A DNA stretch of 64,000 bases from contig NZ_JACIBY010000002.1 in assembly GCF_014195535.1 (NCBI RefSeq), positions 1 to 64,000 of the forward strand, read 5' to 3'. Both the position numbers and the translations under genes were made by a program. The notes below the pieces were generated by a model, which saw only the letters and a list, made by a program, of their open reading frames with translations, had not been told where the DNA came from and searched no databases. Below, piece after piece: positions 16,607 to 53,794 of this stretch (positions are counted from its first letter, which is position 1; each line of letters begins with the position of its first letter). This DNA comes from Runella defluvii (GTDB taxonomy: Bacteria > Bacteroidota > Bacteroidia > Cytophagales > Spirosomataceae).

Positions 16607-16622
16607 GGGTTGGGAGCAACCC
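16607..16622. repeat. GGTTx-NGAG-x'AACC family hairpin
   Basis: Perfect hairpin GGGTTG-GGAG-CAACCC in the spacer between the GH3 gene and the PLP enzyme gene. It belongs to the tetraloop palindrome family found at 21476, 26964, 30832, 44300 and 53585. Confidence 0.75.
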
Positions 16623-16635
16623 TCCACACTAACTT

Positions 16636-18195
16636 TTACACAGTTAGACCTTGCTTTTGGAGGTAGCTTTCCCAGTCGGTTAGTAAGTTTTTCTTCAATA
16701 CGCGTGGGACTTTGTTTTGTCCCCCCATTTTCCCTTTGGCTTCGAGCCAGCCGTAAAATGTACTAGAAGGAACGACCGTCACCAACACATCTTTCAACGC
16801 ATGGCGGCGCTCTACCACGTAGTCGTCATTCAACACTTTGAGGTGTCCGTCTATTTTTTCTCGCAACACTTCGGGAGCCACGTGGTCGTCGGTACCGATA
16901 TACCAATGGTGCGCAAAAAGTGAATCGGAACGAATGCCCGCTACGGTAAATTCTTTGATGGTAATGTCGAGTTCTTCGGCCGTCAATTCAATGGCTTTGT
17001 TCATGTTTTCGACCGAAAGGTGTTCACCACAAAGGCTCAAATAATGCTTGGTACGACCCGTCACGGCGATTTCGGCGCGTTCTTTGTTGACAAACTTGAC
17101 CGTATCGCCAATCAAATAACGCCACGCCCCCGAGCAAGTGGAAAGCAAAAGTGCGTAGTCCACCCCTTCTTCTACTTCATCAATCATCAGCGTTTCGGGA
17201 TTGCAAATTAGCTCACCGTCCTCGTTGAAGTTTTTATCGTTGAAAGGCACAAATTCGTAGAAAATGCCATTGTCAAGCACCAAGCGCATCCCATCGGCGT
17301 GGGGGCGGTTTTGGAAAGCAATAAACCCTTCCGAAGCCAAATAGGTGTCGATGTAAATCAATGGACGCGCCAAAAGTTTCTCAAAACCTGCACGGTAAGG
17401 TTCAAACGAAACCCCTCCGTGACCAAAAACGGTGAGGTTGGGCCAAATGTCGTGGATGGTATCGAGGTTATAGCGCTCAATGATTTTTTCCATGATGATT
17501 TGAAGCCACGCAGGCACCCCCGCCATAAAACCAATGTCCCAGCTTGGGGCTTCCTCTACAATCTTTTCGAGCTTGCGCGACCAATCGCGTTCGCGGGCAA
17601 TTTCACGTCCTGGCTTGTAGTAGCGTTCAAACCAAAACGGAATATTTTTGGCATTGATACCGCTTACGTCTCCCTCAAAACGCCCTTCGTCGATGGCCGT
17701 CAGGTCGATGCTTCCGCCAACGAGGAAGAAACTTTTCTCGTACAAATCACTCGGAATTTCTTCGTAGCGTCCCAGCGAAAAGATTTGGCGTAAACTCGTA
17801 TTACGAAACGATTTGGCCATGGCTTTCGTCACGGGGATGTATTTTGAAGCGGCTTCGGACGTGCCTGAGCTCAACGCAAAATACTTAACCCGCCCAGGCC
17901 AACAGACGTTTTTTTCGCCTTCCCGCGCCATGCTCCACCACTCACGGTAGATTTTCTCGTAGTTGTGAACGGGAACAAATTCTTTATATTTTTCGTAAAA
18001 AGTTTTGCTTTCGTCAAAAACGGCTGCGTTGAGAATGTCCTCAAACTGGTATTTTTCACCAAACTGCGTATAACGAGCCTTGGCAAGAAGCTTGCTCAGG
18101 GTTTTACGCTGTATGTTAGCAAAATCTACATTTTCTTTCTGAATACGAGTTGAGAGCTTGATTCCTCCTTTTAACAAGTTTCCCAAAAGTGCCAT
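16636..18195 (-). CDS. GH3-family (auxin-responsive promoter type) acyl-adenylating protein
   Basis: A 519-residue soluble protein of the bacterial GH3 family, related to plant JAR1/GH3 enzymes that adenylate carboxylic acids and join them to amino acids. Visible marks are the nucleotide-binding serine/threonine loop ALSSGTSEAASKYIP near residue 110, the VFGHGGVSFEPYR segment, and the C-terminal YLIGDTVKF and TGRTKHYLSLCGEHLS motifs. Length matches the family. In bacteria the substrate is generally unknown. It starts 47 bases after surE and probably shares its transcript. ATG 18195 is the only suitable start. Confidence 0.88.
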   Translation of the reverse strand: MALLGNLLKGGIKLSTRIQKENVDFANIQRKTLSKLLAKARYTQFGEKYQFEDILNAAVFDESKTFYEKYKEFVPVHNYEKIYREWWSMAREGEKNVCWPGRVKYFALSSGTSEAASKYIPVTKAMAKSFRNTSLRQIFSLGRYEEIPSDLYEKSFFLVGGSIDLTAIDEGRFEGDVSGINAKNIPFWFERYYKPGREIARERDWSRKLEKIVEEAPSWDIGFMAGVPAWLQIIMEKIIERYNLDTIHDIWPNLTVFGHGGVSFEPYRAGFEKLLARPLIYIDTYLASEGFIAFQNRPHADGMRLVLDNGIFYEFVPFNDKNFNEDGELICNPETLMIDEVEEGVDYALLLSTCSGAWRYLIGDTVKFVNKERAEIAVTGRTKHYLSLCGEHLSVENMNKAIELTAEELDITIKEFTVAGIRSDSLFAHHWYIGTDDHVAPEVLREKIDGHLKVLNDDYVVERRHALKDVLVTVVPSSTFYGWLEAKGKMGGQNKVPRVLKKNLLTDWESYLQKQGLTV

Positions 18196-18242
18196 GCTAT
18201 CAGGGGTTTTTAGTGTTGTGTATCTTTTCTTTATAGGTTAGA

Positions 18243-19019
18243 CTAGAATTGCCATTGCTGCATGAGCTTCATGGTTTCGTAGGCTGTTAAATCATATTGG
18301 CACGGAACTACCGACACGTAGTTATTTTCTAGTGCCCACTCGCACGTATCTTCCTGACCTGCGTCGAAATTTACGAAATTGCCCGATAGCCAAAAATAGC
18401 TACGGCCGTGTGGGTCTTTTCTTTTGTCAAATTCTTCTTGCCATTTGCCGTTTGTTTGGCGACAAATACGTACTCCCTTCAAGGTGTCTTCCGATTTTTT
18501 CGGAAAATTAACGTTGAGCGCTACCCCTTTTGGTAATCCGTTGGCAAGAACATTGCTGGCGATTTGTTTTACATACGGCCTAACGTGCGAAAAATCCGCG
18601 TCAGACGCAAAGTCGCAAAGCGAAAAACCAATCGACGGAATTCCTTCGATGGCTCCTTCAATCGCCGCCGACATTGTCCCTGAGTACAAGACACTTATCG
18701 AGGTGTTTGAGCCGTGATTGATACCACTTACAACCAAGTCAGGTGTACGGTCTTTGAGGACATAGTGCTTGCCTAATTTTACACAATCGGCAGGAGTGCC
18801 GCTGCATTCGTAGGCTTTTATGCCTTCAAAAATGGGAGTAGCGTGTAATCGAAGCGGCTCTCCGATGGTGATGGCGTGTCCCATGCCCGACTGAGGGCTA
18901 TCGGGGGCAACCACCACCACTTCTCCTAACTCCTGCATTACTTCTACTAACGTCCTGATTCCTAATGAGGTAATACCGTCGTCATTGCTGACCAATATAA
19001 GTGGTTTTGGGGAATACAT
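18243..19019 (-). CDS. surE: 5'/3'-nucleotidase SurE
   Basis: Start at ATG 19019 (MYSPKPLILVSNDDG) gives 258 residues. Asp13-Asp14 of the SNDDG motif bind the catalytic divalent metal; the family motifs APDSPQSGMGHAIT and VSGINHGSN follow at their usual spacing. SurE removes phosphate from nucleoside monophosphates and short polyphosphates in the cytoplasm. It begins 65 bases downstream of the GH95-like gene. On its strand a TAACTTTG that fits the Bacteroidota -7 element lies at 19055-19048, but I see no TTG at the matching -33 distance. It is followed closely by the GH3 gene. Confidence 0.93.
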   Translation of the reverse strand: MYSPKPLILVSNDDGITSLGIRTLVEVMQELGEVVVVAPDSPQSGMGHAITIGEPLRLHATPIFEGIKAYECSGTPADCVKLGKHYVLKDRTPDLVVSGINHGSNTSISVLYSGTMSAAIEGAIEGIPSIGFSLCDFASDADFSHVRPYVKQIASNVLANGLPKGVALNVNFPKKSEDTLKGVRICRQTNGKWQEEFDKRKDPHGRSYFWLSGNFVNFDAGQEDTCEWALENNYVSVVPCQYDLTAYETMKLMQQWQF

Positions 19020-19084
19020 ATTCAATAATCGCTCGTTTAAAGGCTGGCAAAGTTACGGACAAATCGTCATATTTTTATGCTGGC

Positions 19085-21373
19085 CTATTCGTAGCCATTT
19101 TTCAATACTATCTTTCCCCCTTTTTGTGCTACTATTTCAATTTCGGTTTCATCAATGGGCTTCACAATCATTCCTTGTTGTACTTTTACAAGATGCGTTT
19201 TGAAAGGAAGTTTCAGGCGAGCCACACCGCCTTTTTCTGAATACAGCTGAATTTCATCCACATTTCCGCCCGTCCGAGTGGCACTTACCAAAAACGCCCC
19301 CTCCGCACGCAGGTCGCGAAAGGACGCCTCCGCCCAATCGGCAGGAACGGCAGGAAACACGCTAATCACTCCCGAATAACTCTGTAAAAGCATTTCTTGA
19401 ACTCCCGCCGCAAAGGCAAAATTTCCTTCTAAGGTAAATGGACGATAGGTAAATTTGGACAAACCCGATTTGGTTTGATCACCATTGGCATGAAACGAAT
19501 TAGGCAAACAAAAAGCCGAGGCAAACGTTCGGAGGGTTTTGGCCGCACCTGCGCCGTCTTTGGCACGCGCTTTCAGACTGCCCAGCCAAGCGTAGGAGTA
19601 GCCGCACCACCAATCGGGTCCGATAGAATCAAGCAAGGCTATGCTTTTTTGGATGATTTTTTGGTCACGTTCGCCCTTTTCCCACTGAATATCCCCCAAC
19701 GGGTGAATCGCCATCATGTGCGAAAAATGGCGGTGCGATTGCGCATATGCCAGCGACGGAGAAACCTTCAATTCCAAACTATCCGACAAGGCATAATCGG
19801 CCATTTGTTTGTTCAATTTTTTCCAACGGGCCATGTCCTGCGTCAAATTTAGTTCGGTGGCCAGTTCTTCGGCTTTGCCAAACGCAAAACGCATCAACGA
19901 CAAATCGTAGTTGGTATTTTCCGAAAACCAAGCCGTCACTCGGTTGTCGTTGATTTCGGGGCTAGAGCCTATCGGCAGTTGGCGTTTCCAATCGTCGTTG
20001 AGAATGGTGTTTTTTTCGAGGAAAGTGGCCACTTGTTTAAACCACGGATACGCCCGTTCTTGCAAAAAACGGCGGTCCATGCTGTAGCGCCACTGAAGGT
20101 AAAAGTGCTGCGACAACCAAGCCGACACCGTTGGAGAAAAAGAATATTGAATCCAACCTCCCATGGGCACGCCCGTCAGCGTGGTTACGCCTGGGACGTT
20201 GATACCATCCGTTTGAAAAAACCATTTGGTGTATTCGCGGTACGCCGCGCGGTTGGCATCAAGGTGGTCGAGGTAGCCCATTGCTTCGTCGAGGTGATTG
20301 GCGGCATAGCTCGGCCAATAACTTAGCTGCGTGTTGAGGTCATGGTGAAAATCCCCTTTCCACGGTGGAAGGCGGCCATTGTCGGCCGTCCACACGGCTT
20401 GCAGCGAAATGGGCGGCGCTCCTTTGCGGGCCGTACTGCCAAATTTGTATTGTTCGAGGTAGTATTGTTTTTCGAGCAATGGGTCGGGCAATTTGAGGCT
20501 TGATTTTCCCCAAAAATTTTTCCACCAACTCAAGTGCGGAAGCATCGCTTTTTCGTACGACATAGCCGTGGCCGTCAACTCATTGGCAGGTGTTTTGGGC
20601 TTGTTGGGGTAATGCGCCGAAATACTCCACACGCCTTCCCACGTTTTGTCAGCCACTTCTTTCCAACGGATACTTACTTCGTATTCAAAATCGCCCCACC
20701 CTTTTTGGCGGTACGTCGCCGACTTTGAGTTTTGTTTTACTTTCCCTTGTTTATACCCCAACCGCGCCAAATCGTCGCCCGCTACTGAGCCGCCTGCTGT
20801 TTTGTCCACTTCGCCTTCGTATTTGGGGGCTAACAGCTGAATATCAAACTCTTTTACGCCTTCTAACCGAAAATACCCAAACGGCAAATTGGCATGAACG
20901 AAGGAGGTAAGGCGCGCTCCATTCGCCCATTTCACTTCTGCCACCGCCCGTTGAATGTCCAAACGCGCACTGGTTACGGCACCCCATTCTTTTGAGGCGA
21001 TTTCGAGGGCGGCTCCAGGAATTTTGCTGGGAGCAGGCTCTTTTTCGTACGGCACATCACCGTATTCTTGTACTGTTTTGTAGTTATTTTTCTTGATTTG
21101 TTCTTGAACCCACTTGTAGGTAAACTCAGGCTTTTTCATGCCTTCCATCGGGCGTAAATCCCAGAGTTCGGCATGGTCGAGTGAAAAACGCAGCTTATCA
21201 TCTTTTTGCCAAATCAACTCTCCCACGAAGCCATTCCCCAACGGCAATGCCTCGTCCCAACGCGTCGGAAGTTTATCAAAAACAAGGTCGTGACTGGCCG
21301 ACACTTGCGCCGAAATAGTGGTGTGTAGGCTACCCACAAGAAACAGTAGCAGCCCTAAAAAGCGTTTGGACAT
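19085..21373 (-). CDS. Secreted GH95-like glycoside hydrolase (alpha-L-fucosidase/galactosidase type)
   Basis: A 762-residue protein with a signal peptide (MSKRFLGLLLFLVGSLHTTISAQ). The N-terminal domain begins with WDEALPLGNGFVGELIW, the start typical of GH95 enzymes, and the (alpha/alpha)6 barrel carries the signature LQAVWTADNGRLPPWKGDFH with HHDLNTQLSYWPSYAANH, followed by a Trp/Tyr-rich core (WFKQVATFLEKN, HFSHMMAIHPLGD). GH95 members release alpha-1,2-linked L-fucose or L-galactose from the ends of glycans. It sits in a region with a second putative glycosidase and two sulfatases, which suggests work on sulfated, fucose-containing glycans in the periplasm. Exact specificity is inferred. 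Confidence 0.85.
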   Translation of the reverse strand: MSKRFLGLLLFLVGSLHTTISAQVSASHDLVFDKLPTRWDEALPLGNGFVGELIWQKDDKLRFSLDHAELWDLRPMEGMKKPEFTYKWVQEQIKKNNYKTVQEYGDVPYEKEPAPSKIPGAALEIASKEWGAVTSARLDIQRAVAEVKWANGARLTSFVHANLPFGYFRLEGVKEFDIQLLAPKYEGEVDKTAGGSVAGDDLARLGYKQGKVKQNSKSATYRQKGWGDFEYEVSIRWKEVADKTWEGVWSISAHYPNKPKTPANELTATAMSYEKAMLPHLSWWKNFWGKSSLKLPDPLLEKQYYLEQYKFGSTARKGAPPISLQAVWTADNGRLPPWKGDFHHDLNTQLSYWPSYAANHLDEAMGYLDHLDANRAAYREYTKWFFQTDGINVPGVTTLTGVPMGGWIQYSFSPTVSAWLSQHFYLQWRYSMDRRFLQERAYPWFKQVATFLEKNTILNDDWKRQLPIGSSPEINDNRVTAWFSENTNYDLSLMRFAFGKAEELATELNLTQDMARWKKLNKQMADYALSDSLELKVSPSLAYAQSHRHFSHMMAIHPLGDIQWEKGERDQKIIQKSIALLDSIGPDWWCGYSYAWLGSLKARAKDGAGAAKTLRTFASAFCLPNSFHANGDQTKSGLSKFTYRPFTLEGNFAFAAGVQEMLLQSYSGVISVFPAVPADWAEASFRDLRAEGAFLVSATRTGGNVDEIQLYSEKGGVARLKLPFKTHLVKVQQGMIVKPIDETEIEIVAQKGGKIVLKNGYE

Positions 21374-21475
21374 GGGTCAGAGTTTATACTAAAAGTGACT
21401 TCAACGCCCCAATTTACCAAGCAATGCCCAATTTTTTACATTAGAAAAATATTAAAGCGCTCGAAACTCCCTAAC

Positions 21476-21520
21476 GAGGTTTTGAGAAACCTCGGTTTTC
21501 GGTTAGGAGTAACCGAAAAC
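21476..21520. repeat. Double hairpin: GAGGTTT-TGAG and GTTTTCGGTTA-GGAG
   Basis: Two adjacent perfect hairpins: GAGGTTT-TGAG-AAACCTC (21476-21493) and GTTTTCGGTTA-GGAG-TAACCGAAAAC (21495-21520, 11-base stem). The same double hairpin recurs at 26964-27008. Degenerate half-copies (AACCGAAAGCACTTGCT and similar) continue to about 21575. Confidence 0.85.
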
Positions 21521-21596
21521 ACTTGCTGTAATTAACCGAAAGCACTTGCTATGAGTAACCAAAAGCAGTTGCCACCACCTATGCTAGGTTATCAAC

Positions 21597-21632
21597 AAAA
21601 AAGCGCCGAGGTGGTTTCCTCGACGCTTTTTG
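21597..21632 (-). terminator. Terminator hairpin after CARDB-like gene
   Basis: A-rich 5' arm and T-rich 3' arm around GCG-C-CGAGG and CCTCG-A-CGC with a TGGTTT loop. It is symmetrical enough to work in both directions; on the minus strand it follows the stop of the 21648-22172 gene by 15 bases. Confidence 0.8.
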
Positions 21633-21647
21633 CAAGGCTGAGTCGCC

Positions 21648-22172
21648 TTAGTCTCGCGGATGTTTCGTCATCGAATTGTTAGACGCCTTCGAATCGTCAT
21701 TTTTTGTATTATTATCACTCAAAATATCTGGCTCATATACAATAATTGCCTTGTACTGAGGAGGAAATTCATCGCTTGGCTTGAAGGCGGGGCGCTCGTA
21801 CGAAAAACTAAAAGAGGCATTTGCATTGAGGTTTTGAAAGGGAAATAGCTTTACCATTTTTCGATTTGTGCTGCTATATTCCTCCCAAAGCTGAACATTT
21901 TGCTGGTTGCTTCCGCTTTCATAATTCATTAAACCCAAGTTTTTGACGGTGACTGTAACACGAATTTTGTCGCCTGTATTAAGTTTTAGAAATGAAAAAC
22001 GGATGTCATCAATGGCAGGGTCAATAGTACCTAAGCGACCTGAATTGGCTCCCCGAATCACCGCAGCGGAGGGGTCGGCGAGTTTAGGCTGAATTTGGCT
22101 CGTTTGAGAAAACACTACAGAAGAAACTGCCAAAAGTGTTATGAGAATGCAAGAAAAAAATGAAGGCTTCAT
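21648..22172 (-). CDS. Secreted protein of unknown function, CARDB-like
   Basis: A 174-residue protein with a signal peptide (cleavage near SSVVFSQ). The body has a single beta-sandwich-like domain: KIRVTVTVKNLGLMNY, then LFPFQNLNANASFSFSYERP, which resembles the CARDB fold used in cell-surface adhesion modules. The C-terminus is polar and rich in Asn, Asp and Ser. It is the last gene of a three-gene minus-strand group of secreted proteins (spacers of 31 and 16 bases) headed by a papain-like protein. I do not recognise a specific family; CARDB similarity is by pattern only. Confidence 0.6.
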   Translation of the reverse strand: MKPSFFSCILITLLAVSSVVFSQTSQIQPKLADPSAAVIRGANSGRLGTIDPAIDDIRFSFLKLNTGDKIRVTVTVKNLGLMNYESGSNQQNVQLWEEYSSTNRKMVKLFPFQNLNANASFSFSYERPAFKPSDEFPPQYKAIIVYEPDILSDNNTKNDDSKASNNSMTKHPRD

Positions 22173-22203
22173 GGAAGTAGTTGTTATTAAAAGTAAAGAA
22201 AAT

Positions 22204-22674
22204 TCAGGAACGAGGAGCTAACACGCGCGGCTTAACAGTGAAGCGAATCGAACGGCTGCAATTTCCATCACGCCCTGTGACTGACCTCCCCGTTGCCATC
22301 AACATGACATCGTAGGTTTCGTTTACATTTCGAAAAGTATATCGAAATTCGTTGCTCGTAGAAGTCTGATTGTAAAGCACTTCATTCCGACCATTGGTAA
22401 TGTACAGTGAGAAATGCCCCTGACAACCCGAACGCACTGGCAGTGTAGGTATAATAAATTGTACGGGTTGTGTGGGGCTGGGCGGCAATTCTAAATCTCG
22501 TGAAATCATGACGCCAACAGTGCCATAAATTGCCTTAGAACCCAGCATAAAGTTGGAGGTAACAGCCTCAGAAAAGCAGCGACAAATACGGCTATCGGGC
22601 GACTGAGCTACGGCCTGGTTGTTTTCTAAAAACAACCCTACTACGGCACAAACGAGGGTGATAAGATATTTCAT
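22204..22674 (-). CDS. Secreted protein of unknown function
   Basis: A 156-residue protein with a signal peptide (cleavage near NNQAVAQ). The mature part contains four cysteines (Cys-Arg-Cys near the start, one in SGCQGHF, one in DGNCSR), suggesting disulfides, and a beta-rich centre (GHFSLYITNGRNEVLYNQ). No family is recognised. It is the middle gene of the secreted cassette and is probably made together with the papain-like protein upstream and the CARDB-like protein downstream; a chaperone, inhibitor or binding partner role is conceivable. Confidence 0.6.
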   Translation of the reverse strand: MKYLITLVCAVVGLFLENNQAVAQSPDSRICRCFSEAVTSNFMLGSKAIYGTVGVMISRDLELPPSPTQPVQFIIPTLPVRSGCQGHFSLYITNGRNEVLYNQTSTSNEFRYTFRNVNETYDVMLMATGRSVTGRDGNCSRSIRFTVKPRVLAPRS

Positions 22675-22690
22675 GTCTGATTATGGAGCT

Positions 22691-23842
22691 TTAGCGAAAA
22701 GTAGCTTCAAAAGGGCGATTATTTCCATCAAATCGTACCAACGGGCGGCCTGTCTGGGCAAATACAACACGCTCTTGGTCACTGCTTTTGGCTACCACCC
22801 GAAGCAAATCGACGTTCCAATTATCTCCTCCTATTCCTCCTCCAAAAGTAGTTTGGAGCATCACACATTTGATTTGACTCAATGGAGCTGCACGGCGAAG
22901 GGTCAGCGGTACATTTTCGGTATAATTGTCCATCCAACGGACATTTTTATTGATATTGGCATACACATCCGTTGACCCATCGGCATATTTTACAATCACA
23001 TTGACATTGTCATTACCGCCACGCAAGTCGTCGCCACCTGTGCCTATTTCAATCAGTAATTGGCGTACCAATCCATCGTTGGCCAAGGGGGTGGGAGAAA
23101 TGACAGGTGGACGCACAGTGGTATATTTTTTATCTACGAAGTACGTGAGCCACTTATTCGCTGGACGTTCTTGATAGTAGTAATTTTGGGCGGTAACATT
23201 GACGCGCAGCGTCTGTGTTTCGTTCGGATAATTGGGATCATAGATAAAGATTTTAAAATCTTCTTTATTATCGCCCAAATCCCCTTTGTAACGTCCCAAA
23301 TCATACCCTATAGCCAAGACCTGATGGTGAGGGCCTACCCCGCCATTTCCGCTTTTAAATAACCCTAGTGGAACTGGGCTTCCTGAGCGCATCATTTCGA
23401 CCAATTCTTGTATCCTGCCACCATTGGTTCCTTGCAGCCCCCAGTTAAAAAATTCATTTGTACGCCAGCCGAATGGATTAAAAATCAGTTCGGCCCACTT
23501 ATCGGAATTTGAGCTACCGTTGACGTTGAGTAAAGTAGAGTTATTTTGTCTCGCCAAAATATACTGTTGCAAAGTTGTACCCGAAGCAGGGCGGTGGGTT
23601 TGGGCTGGAATAGGCTGGTTGTTTTTGTAATAATCGAGTGCCGAATAAACCATCCCTCCGCACAGACCTCCAAAACGAGGGCCATTAAGACCCGCAATTT
23701 GAATCTGGGTTTGAAATTCGTTGGAAAACTTAAAACCATGCTTGATGGGGTCAAACGTAGTGCGTCTCTCTTGAGCGTGAACTCTTGCTGTCATGATTAC
23801 AAGTCCTAATACGAGCGATAATAATGTTGTTAGCTTTTTCAT
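22691..23842 (-). CDS. Secreted papain-like fold protein with C-terminal beta domain
   Basis: Start at ATG 23842 gives a 383-residue protein with signal peptide (cleavage near ARVHAQ). Cys61 in FGGLCGGMVYSALDYY, His172/173 in VGPHHQVLAIGYD and Asp202 in IYDPNYP are spaced like the Cys-His-Asp/Asn triad of papain-type cysteine peptidases or C39-like folds. The last 130 residues form a separate beta domain beginning LLIEIGTGGDDLRGGNDNVN, with ADGSTDVY and GGIGGDNWNVDLL motifs. I infer a secreted cysteine hydrolase with a carbohydrate- or protein-binding tail. It heads a three-gene group and has a good Bacteroidota promoter (23875-23905) with a 26-base leader, which supports the chosen start. 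Confidence 0.7.
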   Translation of the reverse strand: MKKLTTLLSLVLGLVIMTARVHAQERRTTFDPIKHGFKFSNEFQTQIQIAGLNGPRFGGLCGGMVYSALDYYKNNQPIPAQTHRPASGTTLQQYILARQNNSTLLNVNGSSNSDKWAELIFNPFGWRTNEFFNWGLQGTNGGRIQELVEMMRSGSPVPLGLFKSGNGGVGPHHQVLAIGYDLGRYKGDLGDNKEDFKIFIYDPNYPNETQTLRVNVTAQNYYYQERPANKWLTYFVDKKYTTVRPPVISPTPLANDGLVRQLLIEIGTGGDDLRGGNDNVNVIVKYADGSTDVYANINKNVRWMDNYTENVPLTLRRAAPLSQIKCVMLQTTFGGGIGGDNWNVDLLRVVAKSSDQERVVFAQTGRPLVRFDGNNRPFEATFR

Positions 23843-23874
23843 GATAATCAATAAGTTATGTTGAATTGATGGGT

Positions 23875-23905: not shown

Positions 23906-23932
23906 TTACCCTTTTGGGTGATTTTTAAAACC

Positions 23933-26955: not shown

Positions 26956-26963
26956 CACTTAAC

Positions 26964-27008
26964 GAGGTTTTGAGAAACCTCGGTTTTCGGTTAGGAGTAA
27001 CCGAAAAC
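26964..27008. repeat. Double hairpin, second copy
   Basis: GAGGTTT-TGAG-AAACCTC (26964-26981) and GTTTTCGGTTA-GGAG-TAACCGAAAAC (26983-27008). Together with flanks it is identical over about 55 bases to the copy at 21474-21527. It sits between the end of a sulfatase gene and the TPR kinase promoter. Confidence 0.85.
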
Positions 27009-27034
27009 ACTTGCTTTGGGTAGCCGAAAACACC

Positions 27035-30817: not shown

Positions 30818-30831
30818 CACGCTCGTGTCAA

Positions 30832-30847
30832 GGGTTGCTCACAACCC
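30832..30847. repeat. GGTTx-NGAG-x'AACC family hairpin (reverse orientation)
   Basis: GGGTTG-CTCA-CAACCC; read on the minus strand the loop is TGAG. It lies just after the stop of the putative glycosidase gene and before the sulfatase gene and is flanked on both sides by GCTCG. Confidence 0.7.
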
Positions 30848-30900
30848 GCTCGAAAGAAACATAGAGCAAACTCGAAACTGTAAACACGAAACTGAAAAAC

Positions 30901-44148: not shown

Positions 44149-44543
44149 ACGCTTTGGTTTGTTTAGAAATCGTGGTTCAAAACTGCACGGATACGTTGTC
44201 GTTACCAAAGTTTTTTGACGAACCTCGCTTTCCTCTCGACGAAAACTCAACAAATGGGACGTTTAGGTTGCTTACGACCAAACCCTAATACGACGATTTC
44301 CTGCGGTTGTGAGCAACCGCAGGCACATGCGGGAGGTTACTCCTAACCGACCCAATTCGACGATTTCTGCGGTTGTGAGCAACCGCCCACACATAACCGC
44401 CCACACGTGCGGGAGGTTACTCCTAACCGACCCAATTCGGCGATTTCTGCGGTTGTGAGCAACCGCAGGCACATAACCACCGACACATATTGATAGAAAC
44501 TAATGCACTTTGACGAAATTTGCCCAAATTTTTAGACGAACGT
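44149..44543. other. 395-base gap filled with hairpin repeats
   Basis: No gene is supported here. Bases 44149-44260 show nothing identifiable; 44260-44485 is a cluster of palindromic repeats (listed separately); the last 60 bases lead into the LytS-like kinase gene and show no good TTG/TAnnTTTG promoter. Confidence 0.6.
44300..44467. repeat. GGTTx-NGAG-x'AACC hairpin cluster
   Basis: Five hairpins of the tetraloop family: CCTGCGGTTG-TGAG-CAACCGCAGG (44300-44323), GGTTA-CTCC-TAACC (44335-44348), GCGGTTG-TGAG-CAACCGC (44369-44386), GGTTA-CTCC-TAACC (44415-44428) and TGCGGTTG-TGAG-CAACCGCA (44448-44467). The second and third are repeated as a unit by the fourth and fifth with an 80-base period. 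A worn copy (GGTTG-CTTA-CGACC) lies just upstream near 44264. Confidence 0.85.
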
Positions 44544-47486: not shown

Positions 47487-47850
47487 CTAACCTCCCGAAT
47501 GTTTATACTCTACGCAGGCGAACATTCGGGAGCTTAAGCACAAATTACATTCGTTAAAACAGCAAACCTCCCGAATGTTTGTACTCTACGCAAGCGAACA
47601 TTCGGGTGGTTAAGCACAAATCACATTCGTTAAAATAACAAACCTCCCGAATGTTTGTACTCGATGCAAGCGAACATTCGGGAGGTTGAGCACAAATCAC
47701 ATTCGTTAAAACAGCAAACCTCCCGAATGTTTGTACTCTACGCAGGCGAACATTCGGGAGGTTGAGCACAAATCATATTCGTTAAAACAGCAAACCTCCC
47801 GAATGTTTGTACTCTACGCAGGCGAACATTCGGGAGGTTAAAGTTGAGCA
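47487..47850. repeat. 76-base tandem array of five hairpin units
   Basis: CCTCCCGAATGTT starts at 47491, 47567, 47643, 47719 and 47795, an exact 76-base period. In each unit AACCTCCCGAATGTT pairs with AACATTCGGGAGGTT across a loop of about 15 bases (TGTACTCTACGCAGGCG-like); the connecting segment (GCACAAATCACATTCGTTAAAACAGC-like) is also conserved. The array fills the whole spacer between convergent genes (LytTR regulator and hslU) and ends at 47839. There is no poly-T after the hairpins. The conserved, not unique, connectors exclude CRISPR. Confidence 0.92.
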
Positions 47851-49287
47851 TTACAATATATATTGGCTCAAATCGCGGTTTTTGACCAAGTTAGCCAAAC
47901 GCTCCTGCACCAACTCTTTGGTCACAATCACGTGGGCATTAGGCCCGATAACATCAGGAATGTCAAACATGAAGTCATTGAGTAAAGTACTCATCACCGT
48001 TTGAAGGCGACGCGCACCAATGTTTTCCACTTCTGAATTGATGGTAAATGCCAATTTTGCCAACTCTAGCAATGCGTCATCTTGGAACGTCAATTCGACA
48101 CCCTCTGCCTCCATCAACGCAAAATATTGACGCGTGAGAGAGTTACGCGGCTCTTTCAAAATACGGTAGAAATCGTTTTCCGTCAAGCTTTGCAATTCGA
48201 CCCGAATCGGGAAACGTCCCTGTAATTCTGGAATCAAATCCGAAGGTTTAGACACGTGAAAAGCCCCCGCTGCTACAAACAAAATGTGGTCGGTTTTGAT
48301 TGGGCCGTGTTTGGTATTGACCGTTGAGCCTTCGACAATCGGGAGCAAATCGCGCTGAACCCCCTCGCGGCTTACGTCAGGTCCTCCGCCTTTTCCGTTG
48401 GAATTAGCGATTTTGTCAATCTCGTCAATAAAAATAATTCCTAAATTTTCGGCCTTCAGCAACGCTTCTTCTTTGACTTCATCCATGTCAATGAGCTTGG
48501 CTGCTTCCTCTTCCAACAATATCTTACGGGCATCGGCAATGCTCATTTTACGTTTTTTATTACGCTTAGGCATCATGTTACCAAGCATTTCTTGCAAATT
48601 CATCATCGACATATCGTCGATAGGTCCACCCATAACACCAATATTTGGAGCCGACGAAGACTGCATATCAATCTCGATTTTCCGATTTTCGAGTTCACCC
48701 GCCCGTAGTTTATCACGGAAACGCACGCGTGTTCGCTCGTTGAGTTCGTGGTCGGGCATCGACGAAACAGGCGGAGGAGGATTAACGGCGTCGGTATCAT
48801 CCGTAATCTCAAAACCTACGCTTGGGCGGCTGTTGTTCTTGGGCGTGTTATTGGGATACATCGGCGGAATCAGCACATCCAAAATAATTTCCTCTACGAT
48901 GTCCTGTGCCTTTTGTTTTACTTCTTCTTTTTTGGCCGTTTTCACCATATTTACGGCTTGTTCTACCAAGTCGCGCACCATGCTTTCGACGTCACGCCCC
49001 ACGTATCCCACTTCCGTAAATTTAGATGCTTCTACTTTCACAAAAGGGGCATCGGCGATTTTGGCCAAGCGGCGGGCAATTTCGGTTTTCCCGACCCCCG
49101 TCGCGCCAATCATCAAAATATTATTAGGAATAATTTCTTTTTGCATCTCGGGCGTGCTGTTCATCCGACGCCAACGGTTTCGGAGTGCAATCGCCACGTT
49201 GCGCTTGGCATCGTGCTGCCCGATAATGTATTTGTCTAGTTCGGCGACTATTTCGCGGGGAGTTAGTTTATCTAATTGTGAGGACAT
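47851..49287 (-). CDS. hslU: ATP-dependent protease ATPase subunit HslU (ClpY)
   Basis: A 478-residue AAA+ unfoldase. It starts with LTPREIVAELDKYIIGQHDAK, has Walker A GATGVGKTE, the pore loop GYVGRD, an I domain (about residues 110-240), Walker B IIFIDEID and the C-terminal sensor/GARRLQTVMSTLLND motif, ending in the SQYIL tail that docks into HslV. Length is normal for Bacteroidota HslU. The peptidase hslV is not adjacent in this window. It works in the cytoplasm, unfolding proteins for HslV. It is transcribed away from the small lipoprotein gene at 49426. Confidence 0.96.
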   Translation of the reverse strand: MSSQLDKLTPREIVAELDKYIIGQHDAKRNVAIALRNRWRRMNSTPEMQKEIIPNNILMIGATGVGKTEIARRLAKIADAPFVKVEASKFTEVGYVGRDVESMVRDLVEQAVNMVKTAKKEEVKQKAQDIVEEIILDVLIPPMYPNNTPKNNSRPSVGFEITDDTDAVNPPPPVSSMPDHELNERTRVRFRDKLRAGELENRKIEIDMQSSSAPNIGVMGGPIDDMSMMNLQEMLGNMMPKRNKKRKMSIADARKILLEEEAAKLIDMDEVKEEALLKAENLGIIFIDEIDKIANSNGKGGGPDVSREGVQRDLLPIVEGSTVNTKHGPIKTDHILFVAAGAFHVSKPSDLIPELQGRFPIRVELQSLTENDFYRILKEPRNSLTRQYFALMEAEGVELTFQDDALLELAKLAFTINSEVENIGARRLQTVMSTLLNDFMFDIPDVIGPNAHVIVTKELVQERLANLVKNRDLSQYIL

Positions 49288-49367
49288 CCGTTAATTTGAC
49301 AATGTGAAAATAGATAAATTTAAGAAGGCAATAAGGGCATTTTTTTTGCAAAACAAATGTAGAAACG

Positions 49368-49398
49368 TTGGCATTTTCAAATTTGACCTCTATTTTTG
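49368..49398 (+). promoter_or_regulatory. Bacteroidota-type promoter of small lipoprotein gene
   Basis: TTG (49368-49370), 20-base spacer, TATTTTTG (49391-49398): exact fit to TTG / TAnnTTTG. Predicted transcript start near 49405, about 20 bases before ATG 49426. Confidence 0.65.
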
Positions 49399-49425
49399 TA
49401 CAAATTTGATAAACGAATCTTGAAG

Positions 49426-49716
49426 ATGAAACGTAACTTTTTGAAAATAAGTGCTTTGTTGTTGACGGTTTCTTTAGCCTCTTGTAAGTATCAAAAGAAC
49501 AATACCATCGAACAGACGGATTTGCGTGCTGGTGATGAATACGTTTACGGCGTTCATCCCGATTCGGCGGCTCGTCAAACCAAGATTAAATATACGGCAA
49601 AACCAGAATTGGAGCAACGTACCAACGCCATCCGTGAAAAATTGTTTGGTGGTGCTACTCCAGAAACTACTGCTCCTGCGGCCACCCCTGCTGATACAGT
49701 TGTAGCAGCGAAATAA
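49426..49716 (+). CDS. Small lipoprotein of unknown function
   Basis: Start at ATG 49426 gives 96 residues with a lipoprotein signal ending in SLASC. The mature part is short and polar (KYQKNNTIEQTDLRAGDEYVYGVHPDSAARQ) with an Ala/Thr/Pro-rich tail. It has its own good promoter and a strong terminator (49742-49773), so it is an independent transcript. Lipid-anchored; function unknown. Small, abundant-looking lipoproteins of this kind occur widely in Cytophagales, but I cannot place it in a family. Confidence 0.7.
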   Translation: MKRNFLKISALLLTVSLASCKYQKNNTIEQTDLRAGDEYVYGVHPDSAARQTKIKYTAKPELEQRTNAIREKLFGGATPETTAPAATPADTVVAAK

Positions 49717-49741
49717 TTTCTGCGGGATTTGTTATAAATTT

Positions 49742-49773
49742 GAAGCGACGCTCGAACAAGCGTCGCTTCTTTT
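49742..49773 (+). terminator. Terminator after small lipoprotein gene
   Basis: 11-base stem GAAGCGACGCT (49742-49752) and AGCGTCGCTTC (49759-49769), loop CGAACA, followed by TTTT. Lies 25 bases after the lipoprotein stop. Confidence 0.9.
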
Positions 49774-49799
49774 GTTTCCATCAACCTTCTACTAAACCA

Positions 49800-50252
49800 A
49801 TGAAACCATTTTTTCTCCTTTGCTTTTTTCTCACTGCGTCATTTATTGGCTTTTCGCAAACCGAAGAAGCTGCCGTCAAAGTGCCGATTCAACAACTTTT
49901 TGAAGGAATGAAAAAAAGTGACTCGTCGATGGTACACCAAACATTGCTTGCCAACGCCCGCCTCGAATCAATTGTGAAAGCCAAATCGGGCGACATCAGT
50001 GTTAAGTCCGATTCGTTTGATGGGTTTCTAAAAAGCATTGGCAAAGCTACACCTGGCGACCTTGACGAACGCCTCTCGGGAATGCAAATTCGCATTGATG
50101 GTGACTTGGCCACTGCTTGGACTCCCTACAAATTTTATTACAAAGGCAATTTTAGCCACTGTGGTGTCAATGCGTTTCAATTAATAAAAACACCTGCGGG
50201 CTGGAAAATCCTCAGCATCATTGATACGCGCCGCAAAGAGGCGTGTGAGTAA
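49800..50252 (+). CDS. Secreted NTF2-like protein
   Basis: Start at ATG 49800 gives a signal peptide (MKPFFLLCFFLTASFIGFSQ) and 150 residues. The mature domain has the cone-fold pattern of NTF2/SnoaL-like (putative lumazine-binding) proteins: a helix with VKVPIQQLFEGMKKSDSSMVHQ, central strands, and a final pair of strands with TAWTPYKFYYKG and AFQLIKTPAGWKILSIID. Such proteins bind small molecules or serve as enzymes; no catalytic residue set is evident. It follows the lipoprotein terminator, so it is likely a separate transcript. The start upstream at 49740 overlaps the terminator and is rejected. Confidence 0.8.
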   Translation: MKPFFLLCFFLTASFIGFSQTEEAAVKVPIQQLFEGMKKSDSSMVHQTLLANARLESIVKAKSGDISVKSDSFDGFLKSIGKATPGDLDERLSGMQIRIDGDLATAWTPYKFYYKGNFSHCGVNAFQLIKTPAGWKILSIIDTRRKEACE

Positions 50253-50278
50253 ATTTCAAAAATATAAGACACAATTAC

Positions 50279-50536
50279 ATGCGCTACGTTGGAGACATCG
50301 CCACGACTGATTCGTACAAAATTTCGCTCTATACTTGGAATGAAAAATACATCGTCAAGATTGAAGCTGGGCCTTACGAACAAATGTATAAAGTAAATCA
50401 ATTGGACTTTTGGGGAGACGAAGCTGCTTTGAGAGAAATTTTCGCGGACGAGGTTTTCCTAAAAAGTGTGTTTGCCCGTTTTCAGCAAATGCACAGCGAC
50501 TTCAACGACGTCCTTACCCGATTTGATTTAGTCTAG
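50279..50536 (+). CDS. Small conserved-looking protein of unknown function
   Basis: An 85-residue cytoplasmic protein, MRYVGDIATTDSYKISLY at the start, with an N-terminal beta-rich half (YIVKIEAGPYEQMYKV) and a helical C-terminal half (FLKSVFARFQQMHSDFNDVLTRF). It begins 26 bases after the NTF2-like gene and precedes another small gene. I do not recognise it; steady codon use and a clean start support it as real. Confidence 0.65.
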   Translation: MRYVGDIATTDSYKISLYTWNEKYIVKIEAGPYEQMYKVNQLDFWGDEAALREIFADEVFLKSVFARFQQMHSDFNDVLTRFDLV

Positions 50537-50564
50537 TAGTGGTTCATACTCAAACTTTTTTGCC

Positions 50565-50750
50565 ATGACTTTTGAAGAATACCTTGTCACCAAAAAAATT
50601 GACACAAAAACCTTTAGCCAACAAGAAGCGGAGCGTTTTCAGGAATGGGAGCAGCTGTTCTCTCAAATTCACCCTGAGAGTTTTACCGCCCAAAAGAAGT
50701 TTCTTCTCAACGATATCCGTCGGAAGTACTTATTAAAAAACGAAGGATAA
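50565..50750 (+). CDS. Small helical protein of unknown function
   Basis: A 61-residue charged, mainly helical protein (MTFEEYLVTKKIDTKTFSQQ, EQLFSQIHPESF, KFLLNDIRRKYLL). No signal peptide or membrane segment. It starts 28 bases after the 85-residue gene and probably shares its transcript. Its end meets the end of cdaA across a perfect palindrome (AAACGGCGCCGTTT, 50751-50764) that may serve as a shared 3' boundary. Not recognised. Confidence 0.65.
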   Translation: MTFEEYLVTKKIDTKTFSQQEAERFQEWEQLFSQIHPESFTAQKKFLLNDIRRKYLLKNEG

Positions 50751-50762
50751 AAACGGCGCCGT

Positions 50763-51563
50763 TTACTTTCTGCCTACCTCAAACAAGTACTTTTTGAGGC
50801 GTTCTTCGACTTCTGAAGCCGAAATATTGCTAAGGAATTGGCCTTCTATGGCCAACGAAATACGCCCTGTTTCTTCCGAAACGACAATCACCGCCGCGTC
50901 GGTTACTTCGCTCATACCAAGTGCCGCGCGGTGACGGAAGCCCAAGTTTCCGAAATCATCGCTATCCGAAACGGGTAAAATACAGCGTGCAGCTTTGATG
51001 CGCCCATCGGCCACGATGACGCCCCCGTCGTTCATAGGGCTGTATTGATTAAAAAGCGATAGAAAAAGGCGTTTTGACAACACACTGTCCACCTCTTCGC
51101 CCGTTTGGATGTATTTATCGAGTTCATCGTTTTTCTTGAGTACTAGCAAGCCCCCCGTAAACTCAGCTGCCAGTGCCCGAACCGCCTCTATGATAGGCTT
51201 GATTTCATTGATTTTATCGGCCGAAGTTGGTTGGCGAAAAAAACGTCCAATGAGACGGTTATTGGCAAAAGCAGTTGATTTCCCGACAAACAACAAAAAA
51301 CGACGAATCTCTTGTTGGAAAATAACAATCAAAGCCACCGCGCCCACACCCATGAAATACTCCAGGATTTTGGTGAGCAATTCCAAACCAATGGCCCTGA
51401 CGACCAAGTAAAAAAGGTAAATCAACAAATACCCTAAAAATACCCTACTCGCCAAACTTCCCCGCACCAAGTAGTAAATCTGATACAAAAGGAAAGCTAC
51501 CAAGGCAATATCCAAGACGTCAACCCACTCAACGTTCAAAAAACCGATGTGAAAAACGAACAT
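50763..51563 (-). CDS. cdaA: Diadenylate cyclase CdaA (DAC family)
   Basis: A 266-residue protein with two to three N-terminal membrane helices (about 13-33, 40-57, 68-85) and a DAC domain. It makes cyclic di-AMP from two ATP molecules, a second messenger for osmotic and wall control. The RHR motif is intact (GFRHRAALG, 209-217), as is SEVTDAAVIVVSEETG. The usual DGA of the active site reads NDGG (178-181), so the Ala is Gly and the preceding His is Asn. The fold and length are normal. It begins 31 bases after the DedA gene and is probably cotranscribed with it. Confidence 0.9.
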   Translation of the reverse strand: MFVFHIGFLNVEWVDVLDIALVAFLLYQIYYLVRGSLASRVFLGYLLIYLFYLVVRAIGLELLTKILEYFMGVGAVALIVIFQQEIRRFLLFVGKSTAFANNRLIGRFFRQPTSADKINEIKPIIEAVRALAAEFTGGLLVLKKNDELDKYIQTGEEVDSVLSKRLFLSLFNQYSPMNDGGVIVADGRIKAARCILPVSDSDDFGNLGFRHRAALGMSEVTDAAVIVVSEETGRISLAIEGQFLSNISASEVEERLKKYLFEVGRK

Positions 51564-51594
51564 AATAACGACTAGCTATTTTGATATTGGCAAT

Positions 51595-52230
51595 TTATTC
51601 GTCAGCAATTTCTTTTTTGGCGTTAAAATACCCTTTTACTACCGTAAACGTCGTAATTCCTAAAAAGAAAAAGATGATGTAATGTACGTAATCTATAATC
51701 CACGGAAATTTTTCCCCAAAATAATATCCTCCACCTGTCAATCCAAAAATCCACAATCCCGCTCCCAACACATTAAATAACATAAAGCCGCCAATGTTCA
51801 TCCGCACCAATCCTGCCAAAATCGGCGCAAAGGTGCGCACAACGGGCAAAAATCGACTAATCACCAAGGTGCGACTTCCGTACTTATCGAAATACTTACG
51901 GGTGGTGTTGATGTGTTGTTTCTTAAAGAACAGCGAATCGGGTCGATTTTGTATGCGATCCCCAAAAAAACGTCCCGTTAGGTAGCCCGTCAAAGACCCC
52001 ACAATGGCGGCTAAAAACAGGCACGTCAGCAACAAAAAGATGGGAACGTCGAGGATTTTGAGCGCACAAAATACACCTGCCAAAAAAACGAGGTAGTCGC
52101 CTGGCAGAAAAAACGCAAAAAACAGCCCATTTTCGGCAAAAATAATAAGCGTTATGAGCACTAGCCCTCCCGTGCGGATAAGTTCCTCGGAGTTAAGGAG
52201 GTATTGGAAAAAGTCAAGGATAGAATTCAT
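51595..52230 (-). CDS. DedA-family membrane protein
   Basis: Start at ATG 52230 (MNSILDFFQYLLNSEELIR) gives 211 residues. The DedA/SNARE-associated pattern is clear: ENGLFFAFFLPGDYLVFLAG, then GYLTGRFFGDRI, and the late RFLPVVRTFAPILAGLVRMN motif with the conserved FxRxxP arginine. Several DedA proteins move undecaprenyl phosphate or other lipids across the inner membrane or affect membrane proton balance. It is upstream of cdaA with a 31-base spacer; no functional link is established. Confidence 0.92.
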   Translation of the reverse strand: MNSILDFFQYLLNSEELIRTGGLVLITLIIFAENGLFFAFFLPGDYLVFLAGVFCALKILDVPIFLLLTCLFLAAIVGSLTGYLTGRFFGDRIQNRPDSLFFKKQHINTTRKYFDKYGSRTLVISRFLPVVRTFAPILAGLVRMNIGGFMLFNVLGAGLWIFGLTGGGYYFGEKFPWIIDYVHYIIFFFLGITTFTVVKGYFNAKKEIADE

Positions 52231-52345
52231 GTTCAAAATTACACAACTTATCTTTCACAGCAAGCCCTCTGCCTGTTGCATACTAATTTTCTAGGGTAAT
52301 AATTCACTTTTTCGTACTTTTCGGGGCAAAATAACCCATCGAGCC

Positions 52346-53575
52346 GTGAAAAATAACAAATCCGTCATCTTCCCCAGCGCTACTTTTCTTTTTGTGTTCA
52401 AATGGTTGGTAATGGCCCTTATCGTGGGAGTTTTGGCGGGTTCGGCTTCGGCTTTTTTTTTGGTATCGCTCAATTGGGTTACCAACTGGCGAGAAACGCA
52501 TGCTTGGATTACCTGGTTTTTGCCAGTCGGTGGGTTTATCGTCGGAGCCGCCTATTACTATTGGGGGCAAGATGTGGTAAAAGGCAACAACCAACTCATC
52601 GAAGAATTTCACAGTCCATCCCAGATTGTTCCGCTCAAAATGGCACCGCTTGTGCTTTTTGGAACGTTAGTTACGCACTTGTTTGGCGGCTCAGCGGGGC
52701 GCGAAGGTACGGCCGTTCAAATGGGGGGAGCTATTGCTGATCAGTTTACCAAACTCTTCCGATTTTCGGACGATGACCGCCGCATTTTACTAATCATTGG
52801 AATCAGTGCGGGGTTTGCCTCGGTATTTGGGACACCGCTAGCGGGCAGTGTTTTTGCCCTCGAAGTCCTGATTGTGGGGCGTATGCGCTACGAAGCGCTT
52901 TTACCTAGCCTTCTCACGGCACTGGTCGCCGATTATACCTGCCACGCATGGCAAGTAGCTCATACGCATTATAGTATCCCCAACGTACCTCATATTCATG
53001 CAGATACGCTACTTTGGGTCGTTTTTGCGGGCATTTTATTTGGTCTAACATCCCTTTCTTTTTCTAAAATCGTACACTTTTGGGGTGATTTTTTCAAACG
53101 AACCATTGCCTATCCCCCACTTCGGCCCGTGGTTGGGGGAGCGGTATTGGCGGTTTGTATTTGGCTTTTGGGCACAACTCGGCACATTGGTTTGGGCGTG
53201 CCAACCATTGTCGCCTCTTTTACCGAGCCGCTTGCTCCTTACGATTTTGTACTCAAACTTTTGTTGACCACCTTCACCCTCGGCGCAGGTTTTAAGGGCG
53301 GGGAAGTCACTCCCCTTTTCTTCATTGGCGCTACGTTGGGCAATGCACTTTCGGCTTTCGTACCGCTGCCGATGGCGTTGCTGGCAGGGATGGGTTTCGT
53401 ATCTGTCTTCGCAGGTGCGACCAATACGCCGATTGCCTGTACACTGATGGGGATGGAGCTTTTTGGGGCCGAATGTGGCGTTTTTATTGCCTTATCGAGC
53501 GTCATCGCTTACCTTTTTTCGGGGCACTCAAGCATTTATAGCGCTCAAGTATTTCAAAAGGAGAAACACGATTAG
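52346..53575 (+). CDS. ClC-family chloride/fluoride transporter
   Basis: A 409-residue ClC protein starting at GTG 52346. The permeation motifs are GSAGREGTAVQ (gating Glu120; the usual GREGP has Thr here) and, in place of GSGIP, the sequence KGNNQLIEEF (Gly80-Asn81-Asn82). TPLAGSVFALEV and FKGGEVTPLFFIGA follow, with about ten to twelve helices and no C-terminal CBS pair. ClC proteins exchange Cl- or, in the CLC-F branch, F- against H+. The GNN/GREGT combination differs from the Cl- type and may point to the fluoride branch. No fluoride riboswitch is seen upstream. Confidence 0.88.
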   Translation: MKNNKSVIFPSATFLFVFKWLVMALIVGVLAGSASAFFLVSLNWVTNWRETHAWITWFLPVGGFIVGAAYYYWGQDVVKGNNQLIEEFHSPSQIVPLKMAPLVLFGTLVTHLFGGSAGREGTAVQMGGAIADQFTKLFRFSDDDRRILLIIGISAGFASVFGTPLAGSVFALEVLIVGRMRYEALLPSLLTALVADYTCHAWQVAHTHYSIPNVPHIHADTLLWVVFAGILFGLTSLSFSKIVHFWGDFFKRTIAYPPLRPVVGGAVLAVCIWLLGTTRHIGLGVPTIVASFTEPLAPYDFVLKLLLTTFTLGAGFKGGEVTPLFFIGATLGNALSAFVPLPMALLAGMGFVSVFAGATNTPIACTLMGMELFGAECGVFIALSSVIAYLFSGHSSIYSAQVFQKEKHD

Positions 53576-53584
53576 TCAGTGAGA

Positions 53585-53794
53585 GGGAGGTTGCTCACAA
53601 CCTCCCTTCTTGTGTCTCTGGTTGCTCACAACCTGAGTTTTACTAAAGATACGCTCAATCAAGGAGGTTGTGAGCAACCTCCTGCACACTATACGCTAGC
53701 CAAGGAGGTTGTAAGCAACCTCCTGCACATTATACGCTAATCAAGGAGGTTGTGAGCAACCTCCTACACGCTATACGAGCAACCTCCTGCACGG
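53585..53794. repeat. GGTTx-NGAG-x'AACC hairpins including a 41-base tandem array
   Basis: GGGAGGTTG-CTCA-CAACCTCCC (53585-53606), GGTTG-CTCA-CAACC (53620-53633), then a tandem array with a 41-base period: AGGAGGTTG-TGAG-CAACCTCCT at 53662-53683, the same with loop TAAG at 53703-53724 and again TGAG at 53744-53765, followed by a half copy (AGCAACCTCCTGCAC, 53780-53794). Connectors read GCACACTATACGCTAGCCA-like. They fill the space between clcA-like and the DUF4249 gene (convergent). Confidence 0.9.

Follow-up and report, generated by a model that had tools for sequence, protein, structure and literature searches.

Tagged tetraloop hairpins of Runella as probable REP elements of a RAYT transposase clade

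We analysed a 64,000-nucleotide stretch of the Runella defluvii genome (contig NZ_JACIBY010000002.1, positions 1–64,000; hereafter the window), in which a family of small hairpins is scattered. With a probability that we put at about 0.86, these are repetitive extragenic palindromic (REP) elements, that is, non-autonomous hairpin repeats of single-stranded DNA (ssDNA), recognised and probably once dispersed by one HUH transposase of the RAYT/TnpAREP type (RAYT, REP-associated tyrosine transposase), encoded at C4:567261–567848 of the same genome. The hairpins are of one family. Their stem has 9 bp, covaries in part and has GG[T/G]T as its conserved inner portion; the tetraloop is a conserved NRAG, and a CAC/GTG tag lies at a constant distance. 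The family is physically linked to one RAYT clade in two genera, its stems co-diverge, and it lies mostly at gene 3′ ends. Its tag and loop are atypical, and it is probably cognate to TnpAREP subclass 2.6 (group 5 of Bertels). Genomes are labelled G000 for R. defluvii itself, G000 to G012 for the 13 genomes of the genus Runella, and g5 for a second genus, perhaps Spirosoma. One protein encoded in the window is 98% identical over 263 residues to a protein of Runella limosa DSM 17973.

Anatomy and pairing of the hairpin

The pattern GGTTNNNNNNAACC matches 18 times in the window, compared to a mean of 2.10 and a maximum of 6 in 100 shuffles. In 16 of the 18 GGTT-N6-AACC sites the base pair x that follows GGTT is formed and the loop is NRAG (TGAG, GGAG or TAAG, in either orientation); the other two (2571 and 54560) lack a paired x and fall outside the family. 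The initial annotation had reported at least sixteen such hairpins, and its coordinates proved correct to within a few bases. The copies form six clusters, at ∼16.6, 21.5, 27.0, 30.8, 44.3–44.5 and 53.6–53.8 kb, between long open reading frames (ORFs), and 12 of the 16 carry the CAC tag. They are listed here as 26-nt spans.

16604–16629, + strand: tagged hairpin, loop GGAG, CAC at 16627–16629
21474–21499, + strand: untagged 5′ hairpin of a two-hairpin composite, loop TGAG
21497–21522, + strand: tagged 3′ hairpin of this composite, loop GGAG, 10-bp stem, CAC at 21520–21522
26962–26987, + strand: untagged 5′ hairpin of a second composite, loop TGAG
26985–27010, + strand: tagged 3′ hairpin of the second composite, loop GGAG, CAC at 27008–27010
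30825–30850, − strand: tagged hairpin, loop TGAG (CTCA on the + strand), six inner pairs, minus-strand CAC at 30825–30827
44301–44326, + strand: tagged hairpin, loop TGAG, 10-bp stem
44327–44352, − strand: hairpin, loop GGAG, degenerate tag CAT
44367–44392, + strand: tagged hairpin, loop TGAG
44407–44432, − strand: tagged hairpin, loop GGAG
44447–44472, + strand: tagged hairpin, loop TGAG
53581–53606, − strand: hairpin, loop TGAG, degenerate tag CTC
53612–53637, − strand: tagged hairpin, loop TGAG
53662–53687, + strand: tagged hairpin of a local array, loop TGAG
53703–53728, + strand: tagged hairpin, loop TAAG, same array as 53662–53687
53744–53769, + strand: tagged hairpin, loop TGAG, last of this array

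As expected of REP elements, the family is a short palindrome with hundreds of dispersed copies. The whole genome contains 620 GGTTNNRAGNAACC sites, compared to 31 for the same pattern read backwards, so that the abundance of further copies on which the initial annotation had made its reading depend is indeed found (about 600 sites). On contig C1 (1.16 Mb), tetraloop hairpins with a perfect stem of at least 8 pairs number 102, compared to 19, 26 and 21 in three Markov resamplings, and 41 of the 102 have a TGAG/CTCA loop. A search of C1 free of assumptions on loop and stem sequence, which required only five or more inner pairs and CAC at +11, returned 118 hairpins. The loop is TGAG, GGAG or TAAG in 83 of these and ends in [GA]AG in 85, with inner stems GGTTG (46), GGTTT (24), GGGTA (9), GGTTA (4) and others (2); loops are scattered in the other 33. 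Other recurrent C1 hairpins with stems of at least 9 pairs are GTT-CTGA-AAC (4) and GTT-CAA-AAC (6), possibly further REP-like families.

The CAC tag, overlooked by the initial annotation, belongs to the family unit. Among 89 dereplicated core copies (from 140), the frequencies of C, A and C at +11, +12 and +13 after the loop are.82,.81 and.83; the tag starts exactly at +11 in 68 of the 89, and no other column outside the selected core carries comparable information. Read on the opposite strand, the unit is 5′-GTG-[10 nt]-CTYN loop-[arm], with a loop that is mostly CTCA. An upstream CAC, considered as a target site for single copies, is not enriched at any one distance. Rho-independent terminators are ruled out by the near absence of T-runs, in line with the lack of poly-T noted earlier: on the NRAG strand, none of 103 copies has five or more T close to the hairpin, and on the other strand 4 of 103 do. 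Apart from one tRNA, the window has no match to a known Rfam RNA family at the gathering score.

As selection for pairing had to be avoided, copies for the pairing test were chosen by loop, 3′ arm and tag only (121, dereplicated to 87), and pairing was compared with 1000 shuffles of the 87. At positions 1, 3 and 6–9, pairing exceeds that in every shuffle: 83 of 87 copies are paired at pair 1 (shuffled mean 36.7, maximum 48), 85 at pair 3 (74.1, 79), 77 at pair 6 (25.8, 38), 56 at pair 7 (20.9, 33), 51 at pair 8 (34.4, 45) and 58 at pair 9 (22.7, 39), and pair 10, with 25 compared to a mean of 20.9, is at chance level. Pair 3 is T:A in 79 copies, G:C in 6 and unpaired in 2. Positions 2, 4 and 5 are paired in 85, 83 and 83 copies, and shuffling is uninformative there because selection fixed the 3′ base. 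The covariation score, computed on 66 of the 87 copies, is 0.467, compared to 0.114 when shuffled (reached in 0 of 500 shuffles) and at most 0.128 for slid versions. When 10 tagged hairpins that flank RAYT genes in g5 are combined with 45 Runella hairpins, the score is 0.617 (shuffled, 0.143), with both-sides changes in 7 of 9 pairs; since the copies share descent, covariation cell counts are not independent events. These 10 g5 hairpins keep the NRAG loop and CAC, and their stems are altered yet paired, as exemplified by GTGTCGGGTT and ATGTCAGTTT.

The covariation of x claimed by the initial annotation is thus borne out for G:C, T:A and A:T, with C:G absent from the copies of the unconstrained C1 search and of the pairing test, and so is the in-step change of the outer stem. 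Its further statement, that structure and not sequence is kept, holds for x and the outer stem; it fails for the inner stem and loop, where sequence is also conserved, because 83 of the 85 C1 hairpins with a [GA]AG loop have GGTTx or GGGTA as inner stem. Paired changes, as it had anticipated, are also kept in relatives, both in the g5 stems and at 53589 in the window, where the G003 orthologue of the 53581–53606 hairpin has changed on both sides from T:A to G:C. Hairpin-templated repair of quasi-palindromes during replication would restore stems by mutation, and would yield such a both-sides change without selection. As a replacement for the REP explanation it is most unlikely, leaving the conserved loop and inner stem, the unpaired tag and the linkage to a RAYT unaccounted for, and it could instead add to that explanation.

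A RAYT clade flanked by the hairpins

The PF01797 profile identifies seven Y1 transposase-like stretches in the R. defluvii genome, and C4:567261–567848 is the sole one with family hairpins adjoining (three of the loci ended at contig ends). It encodes a 196-residue protein that scores 101.3 bits against the NCBIfam model NF047646 (REP_Tyr_transpos; cut-off 80) and 18.6 bits against the IS200 model (cut-off 55). The motifs NHIH (HUH) and YMHNNP (Y1, Y---NP) are those of RAYT/TnpAREP proteins. The only PDB sequence match of the RAYT profile is the E. coli TnpAREP (4er8), which is also the top Foldseek match (E 3.9e-9) of the AlphaFold model (pLDDT 85.0, pTM 0.79), and the predicted fold is accordingly that of TnpAREP. 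The region aligned to W94-Q95 of the E. coli protein, residues tied to GTAG recognition (PMC6006769, in part), reads W-D. A second RAYT-type gene of the genome, L037 (C2:562207–562440), scores 100 bits against REP_Tyr_transpos and has no adjoining tetraloop hairpin with at least 7 pairs.

The initial annotation had read the hairpins as REP-type elements that a RAYT encoded elsewhere might mobilise. Such a gene does exist on another contig, with dense hairpin arrays on both sides, and the reading is supported by copy number, paired changes in relatives and this flanked RAYT, mobility itself being presumed and the canonical GT[AG]G tag lacking. As in a REPtron, the 3.6-kb RAYT loci contain 31 hairpin cores in G000, 32 in G010 and 28 in G003. 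In two genera, all 8 intact close RAYT genes have at least one NRAG hairpin in their locus (taken as ∼1.5 kb to either side), CAC-tagged in 7 of the 8. The GGTT core is found at none of the 23 distant RAYT loci examined.

Intact close RAYTs occur in G000, G010 (95%), G003 (93%) and G016 (54%). Fragments with stops are present in G001, G002 and G007, and only distant RAYTs in G009, G011 and G012. Among 39 genomes, core-pattern counts are 620 in G000, 527 in G003, 508 in G010 and 73 in G016, and from 32 to 97 in each of G001, G002, G007, G009, G011 and G012; the counts of G004, G005, G006 and G008 do not exceed the reversed control. Within Runella, 508–620 core sites are thus found in each of the three genomes that have an intact RAYT, and at most 97 in each of the other ten. 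Counts from a covariance model, run on 30 chosen genomes with 150 candidates scored in each and therefore lower bounds, agree with this pattern in Runella. Across 200 genomes of the family, at least five strict tagged copies are present in 11 of 12 genomes with a close RAYT and in 7 of 188 without (Fisher test, 9.5e-13), a comparison between genomes that are not independent, for which the definition of a close RAYT (at least 100 bits) and the copy cut-off of 5 were both set after the data were seen; these limits belong with the contrary points weighed below. The exception among the 12, G065, has a close RAYT gene with a stop, another hairpin flanking it and no copies.

Other RAYT genes are accompanied by hairpins of their own. 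A distant RAYT of G011 (L157/L289, near position 1093900 of its contig C1), apparently split in two reading frames, has a separate hairpin family on its flanks, GTTGTTGGTG-TTAT-CACCAACAAC, and further private hairpins stand beside the distant RAYTs L147, L154, L155 and L166. The family may therefore harbour several pairs of RAYT and repeat side by side. In G159, the RAYT L231 (C1:1979039–1979581) has NYIH in place of NHIH at the HUH motif, and the genome is still rich in copies. The window itself contains a different repeat, at 47490–47850, with five tandem copies of a ∼75-bp unit whose palindrome is longer (AACCTCCCGAATGTT...AACATTCGGGAGGTT). The unit is present once in G010 and once in G003, and has thus expanded in R. 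defluvii.

Genomic context, age and alternative explanations

The context of the hairpins was determined on C1 with ORFs called greedily, and hence crudely. Of 42 clusters, 19 lie between convergent and 19 between tandem ORFs, 4 fall in called ORFs and none is in a divergent gap, compared to 767 of 3000 random intergenic points. With 38 of 42 clusters intergenic, the location is that of REP elements, extragenic and mostly after genes. An exception to the avoidance of divergent gaps is the window cluster at 44301–44472, between divergent ORFs. Two or more copies occur in 29 of the 42 clusters, and certain spacings are preferred, similar to the inverted and tandem clusters of bacterial interspersed mosaic elements (BIMEs).

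A preference for gene 3′ ends and avoidance of divergent gaps would also suit RNA elements, namely transcribed hairpins in 3′ untranslated regions that end transcription or protect mRNA 3′ ends and that spread by local duplication or recombination only, and the paired change at 53589 in G003, an orthologous site, would be compatible with them. We consider such elements improbable as a substitute for REPs, given the scarcity of T-runs, the constant spacing of a tag that is not part of the stem, the physical linkage to one RAYT clade and not to the distant RAYT loci examined, and the background-level counts in four Runella-genus genomes. REPs can also have host roles, and the two readings are thus not exclusive. 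Frequent G:T pairs were taken as a sign of transcription for GTAG REPs (PMC3733652, in part); here, G:T is found at pairs 6–9 in only 3, 1, 2 and 7 of the 87 copies.

The conserved inner GGTT/AACC arms could alternatively form an inverted repeat, GGTTx..x′AACC, bound as double-stranded DNA by a dimeric regulator or nucleoid protein. A symmetric site would not require the asymmetric NRAG loop, the one-sided tag or the covariation of pairs 6–9, and is disfavoured by them. The arrays around an HUH transposase gene and the complete absence of C1 clusters from divergent gaps, where regulators mostly act, add to the case against it, and we hold this explanation to be very improbable.

Most of the copies compared are common to a sister species, and hence old: G010 could be aligned at 19 of the 25 clusters that lie above 380 kb on C1, and hairpins are also present there in 18 of the 19. 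In the window, the hairpin at 21497–21522 is kept in both G010 and G003, and that at 26985–27010 is kept in G010 and absent from G003, where the stretch next to the site (26966) is only ∼74% identical. At 16608, G003 has an identical stem with a TAAG loop and G010 lacks the site; loss in G010 is likelier than gain, since G003 has the site with another loop.

Several observations, together with the limits of the 200-genome comparison, weigh against REP elements dispersed by this RAYT. The GT[AG]G tetranucleotide at the 5′ foot of REP elements is absent from the family, with GTG (CAC) at a fixed +11 instead. Clean empty sites that would show insertion ends were sought in G010 and G003, and none was established. 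The six inspected sites that differ between G000 and G010 appear to have gained or lost array units or to have given way to other repeats: G000 has 86 bp extra between two like hairpins at 419704 and five repeats compared to two in G010 at 893247, and G010 has extra sequence at 404902 and 932579, all four being array or spacer changes; at 916353 and 1099400, other sequence or repeats have taken the place of the site. The intact RAYT of G150 has a single adjoining NRAG hairpin, which is untagged, and no NRAG family hairpin adjoins the broken RAYTs of G002 and G065. A close RAYT is missing from at least eight genomes that contain hairpins (in Runella, G012, G011 and G009; in g5, G177, G183, G198, G204 and G064). 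Within g5, copy number does not track RAYT presence, with at least 121 copies in G204, 91 in G198, 71 each in G177 and G183 and 31 in G064, all without a close RAYT, compared to at least 114 in G159, 97 in G168, 62 each in G016 and G150 and 53 in G186, all with one. Finally, the active strand is presumed to be the GTG strand, since GTG then lies 5′ of the hairpin, like GTAG, and CTYA resembles the T-T-N-A loop of REPMb; alternatively, the opposite strand may be cleaved at CAC, on the 3′ side.

In our reading of the RAYT-less genomes, the RAYT may have been lost while the repeats persisted. A looser search of 20 genomes for another RAYT to account for their hairpins returned only distant RAYTs without family hairpins adjoining. 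Recent change in the family is mainly local array gain or loss. Near 893247, C1 has a tandem array with a 32-bp period, in which the repeats after the first have the loop, 3′ arm and CAC and lack the 5′ arm; hairpins near 916353 and 1099400 are surrounded by short, reiterated repeats of the TCGA/GCAGA type, which differ from G010.

Known systems, proposed mechanism and implications

The closest parallels are found among REPs and their relatives. As in E. coli, where REPs and BIMEs are paired with TnpAREP (4er8), inverted and tandem hairpin arrays surround one transposase gene and copies are intergenic, after genes; unlike in E. coli, no conserved mid-stem bulge and no GTAG were found, and W94-Q95 aligns to W-D. 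REPMb (Marinomonas) and REPSm (Stenotrophomonas), of the group 3 or subclass 2.5 TnpAREPs, likewise have a short hairpin with a 5′ tag on one strand and loop bases that matter; the REPMb loop is T-T-N-A, compared to mostly C-T-Y-A on the tag strand here (PMC8266576, in part). A nearly fixed length of foot plus stem is also common to both (PMC6006769, in part). The Runella family differs from these in its GTG tag (CAC on the other strand) in place of GT[AG]G, in a RAYT of a different clade, and in an arm of exactly 10 nt, partly paired, between tag and loop. The ends of IS200/IS605 elements (IS608, ISDra2) are also ssDNA hairpins with loop contacts (PMC8266576, in part), and the enzyme folds are related; unlike these elements, one close RAYT gene is here embedded in repeats, and its match to IS200 is weak.

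Subclass 2.6 shares with our system its occurrence in Bacteroidetes, NH[LIV]H and YIH[QN]NP-like motifs (NHIH and mostly Y[MI]H[NT]NP here), the lack of GT[AG]G and copies elsewhere in the genome (PMC6006769, in part). Motifs and phylum thus fit this placement, but the residue after W is D, T or E in place of the Q tabulated for subclass 2.6, and many stems are strong, compared to the weaker structures described for its repeats (PMC6006769, in part). The same source treats subclass 2.6 and class 3 repeats as REP-like also without GT[AG]G, terms the former only “atypical”, and gives no consensus for them in the portion consulted.

By analogy with TnpAREP biochemistry (PMC8266576, in part), the RAYT would read the 5′ tag and loop bases of the strand 5′-GTG-[10-nt arm]-CTYA-[arm]. 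Its substrate would be the ssDNA hairpin extruded at the replication fork, next to which it may cleave and rejoin DNA, like E. coli TnpAREP in vitro. Copies would thereby have spread slowly into gaps after genes.

The two composites in the window (21474–21522 and 26962–27010), also overlooked by the initial annotation, raise the possibility of a larger unit. In stretches of G000, G010 and G003 there are 45 head-to-tail hairpin pairs with loops 21–23 nt apart, the first hairpin untagged in 45 of 45 and the second tagged in 43 of 45; many are from RAYT arrays or orthologous, and hence not independent, and 17 remain after dereplication, with TT[AC]AC as the majority bases ahead of the first hairpin. 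In the second genus, 23-nt composites also adjoin the RAYT of G186 and that of G016, where one of the two is CAC-tagged. It is conceivable, if rather doubtful, that the full unit is a ∼50-nt composite, TT[AC]AC - untagged hairpin - tagged hairpin - NCAC, which flanks the RAYTs of the two genera and acts like a miniature IS200/IS605 element, its left end being TTMAC and its right end CAC, with single hairpins as solo ends. Single tagged copies outnumber composites (117 compared to 17, both dereplicated) and the missing tag of the first hairpin is partly forced by geometry, both of which weigh against such a unit. If it were real, the composite would stand midway in structure between an insertion sequence and a REP.

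In the literature surveyed, the biochemistry of REP recognition has been resolved for no TnpAREP groups other than those with GTAG tags (PMC8266576, in part). Our survey of open-licence literature, supplements excluded, found no description of this repeat in Runella or Spirosoma, and another description or a table entry is possible. The hairpins provide a defined candidate pair of repeat and enzyme, with tag, loop and spacing, for a Bacteroidota RAYT clade, together with its variation in two genera, and the fragmentary or interrupted RAYTs of G001, G002, G007 and G065 are natural knock-outs. The pair suggests that the tag may change while the logic of a single-strand hairpin persists, and it predicts which bases the enzyme would read.

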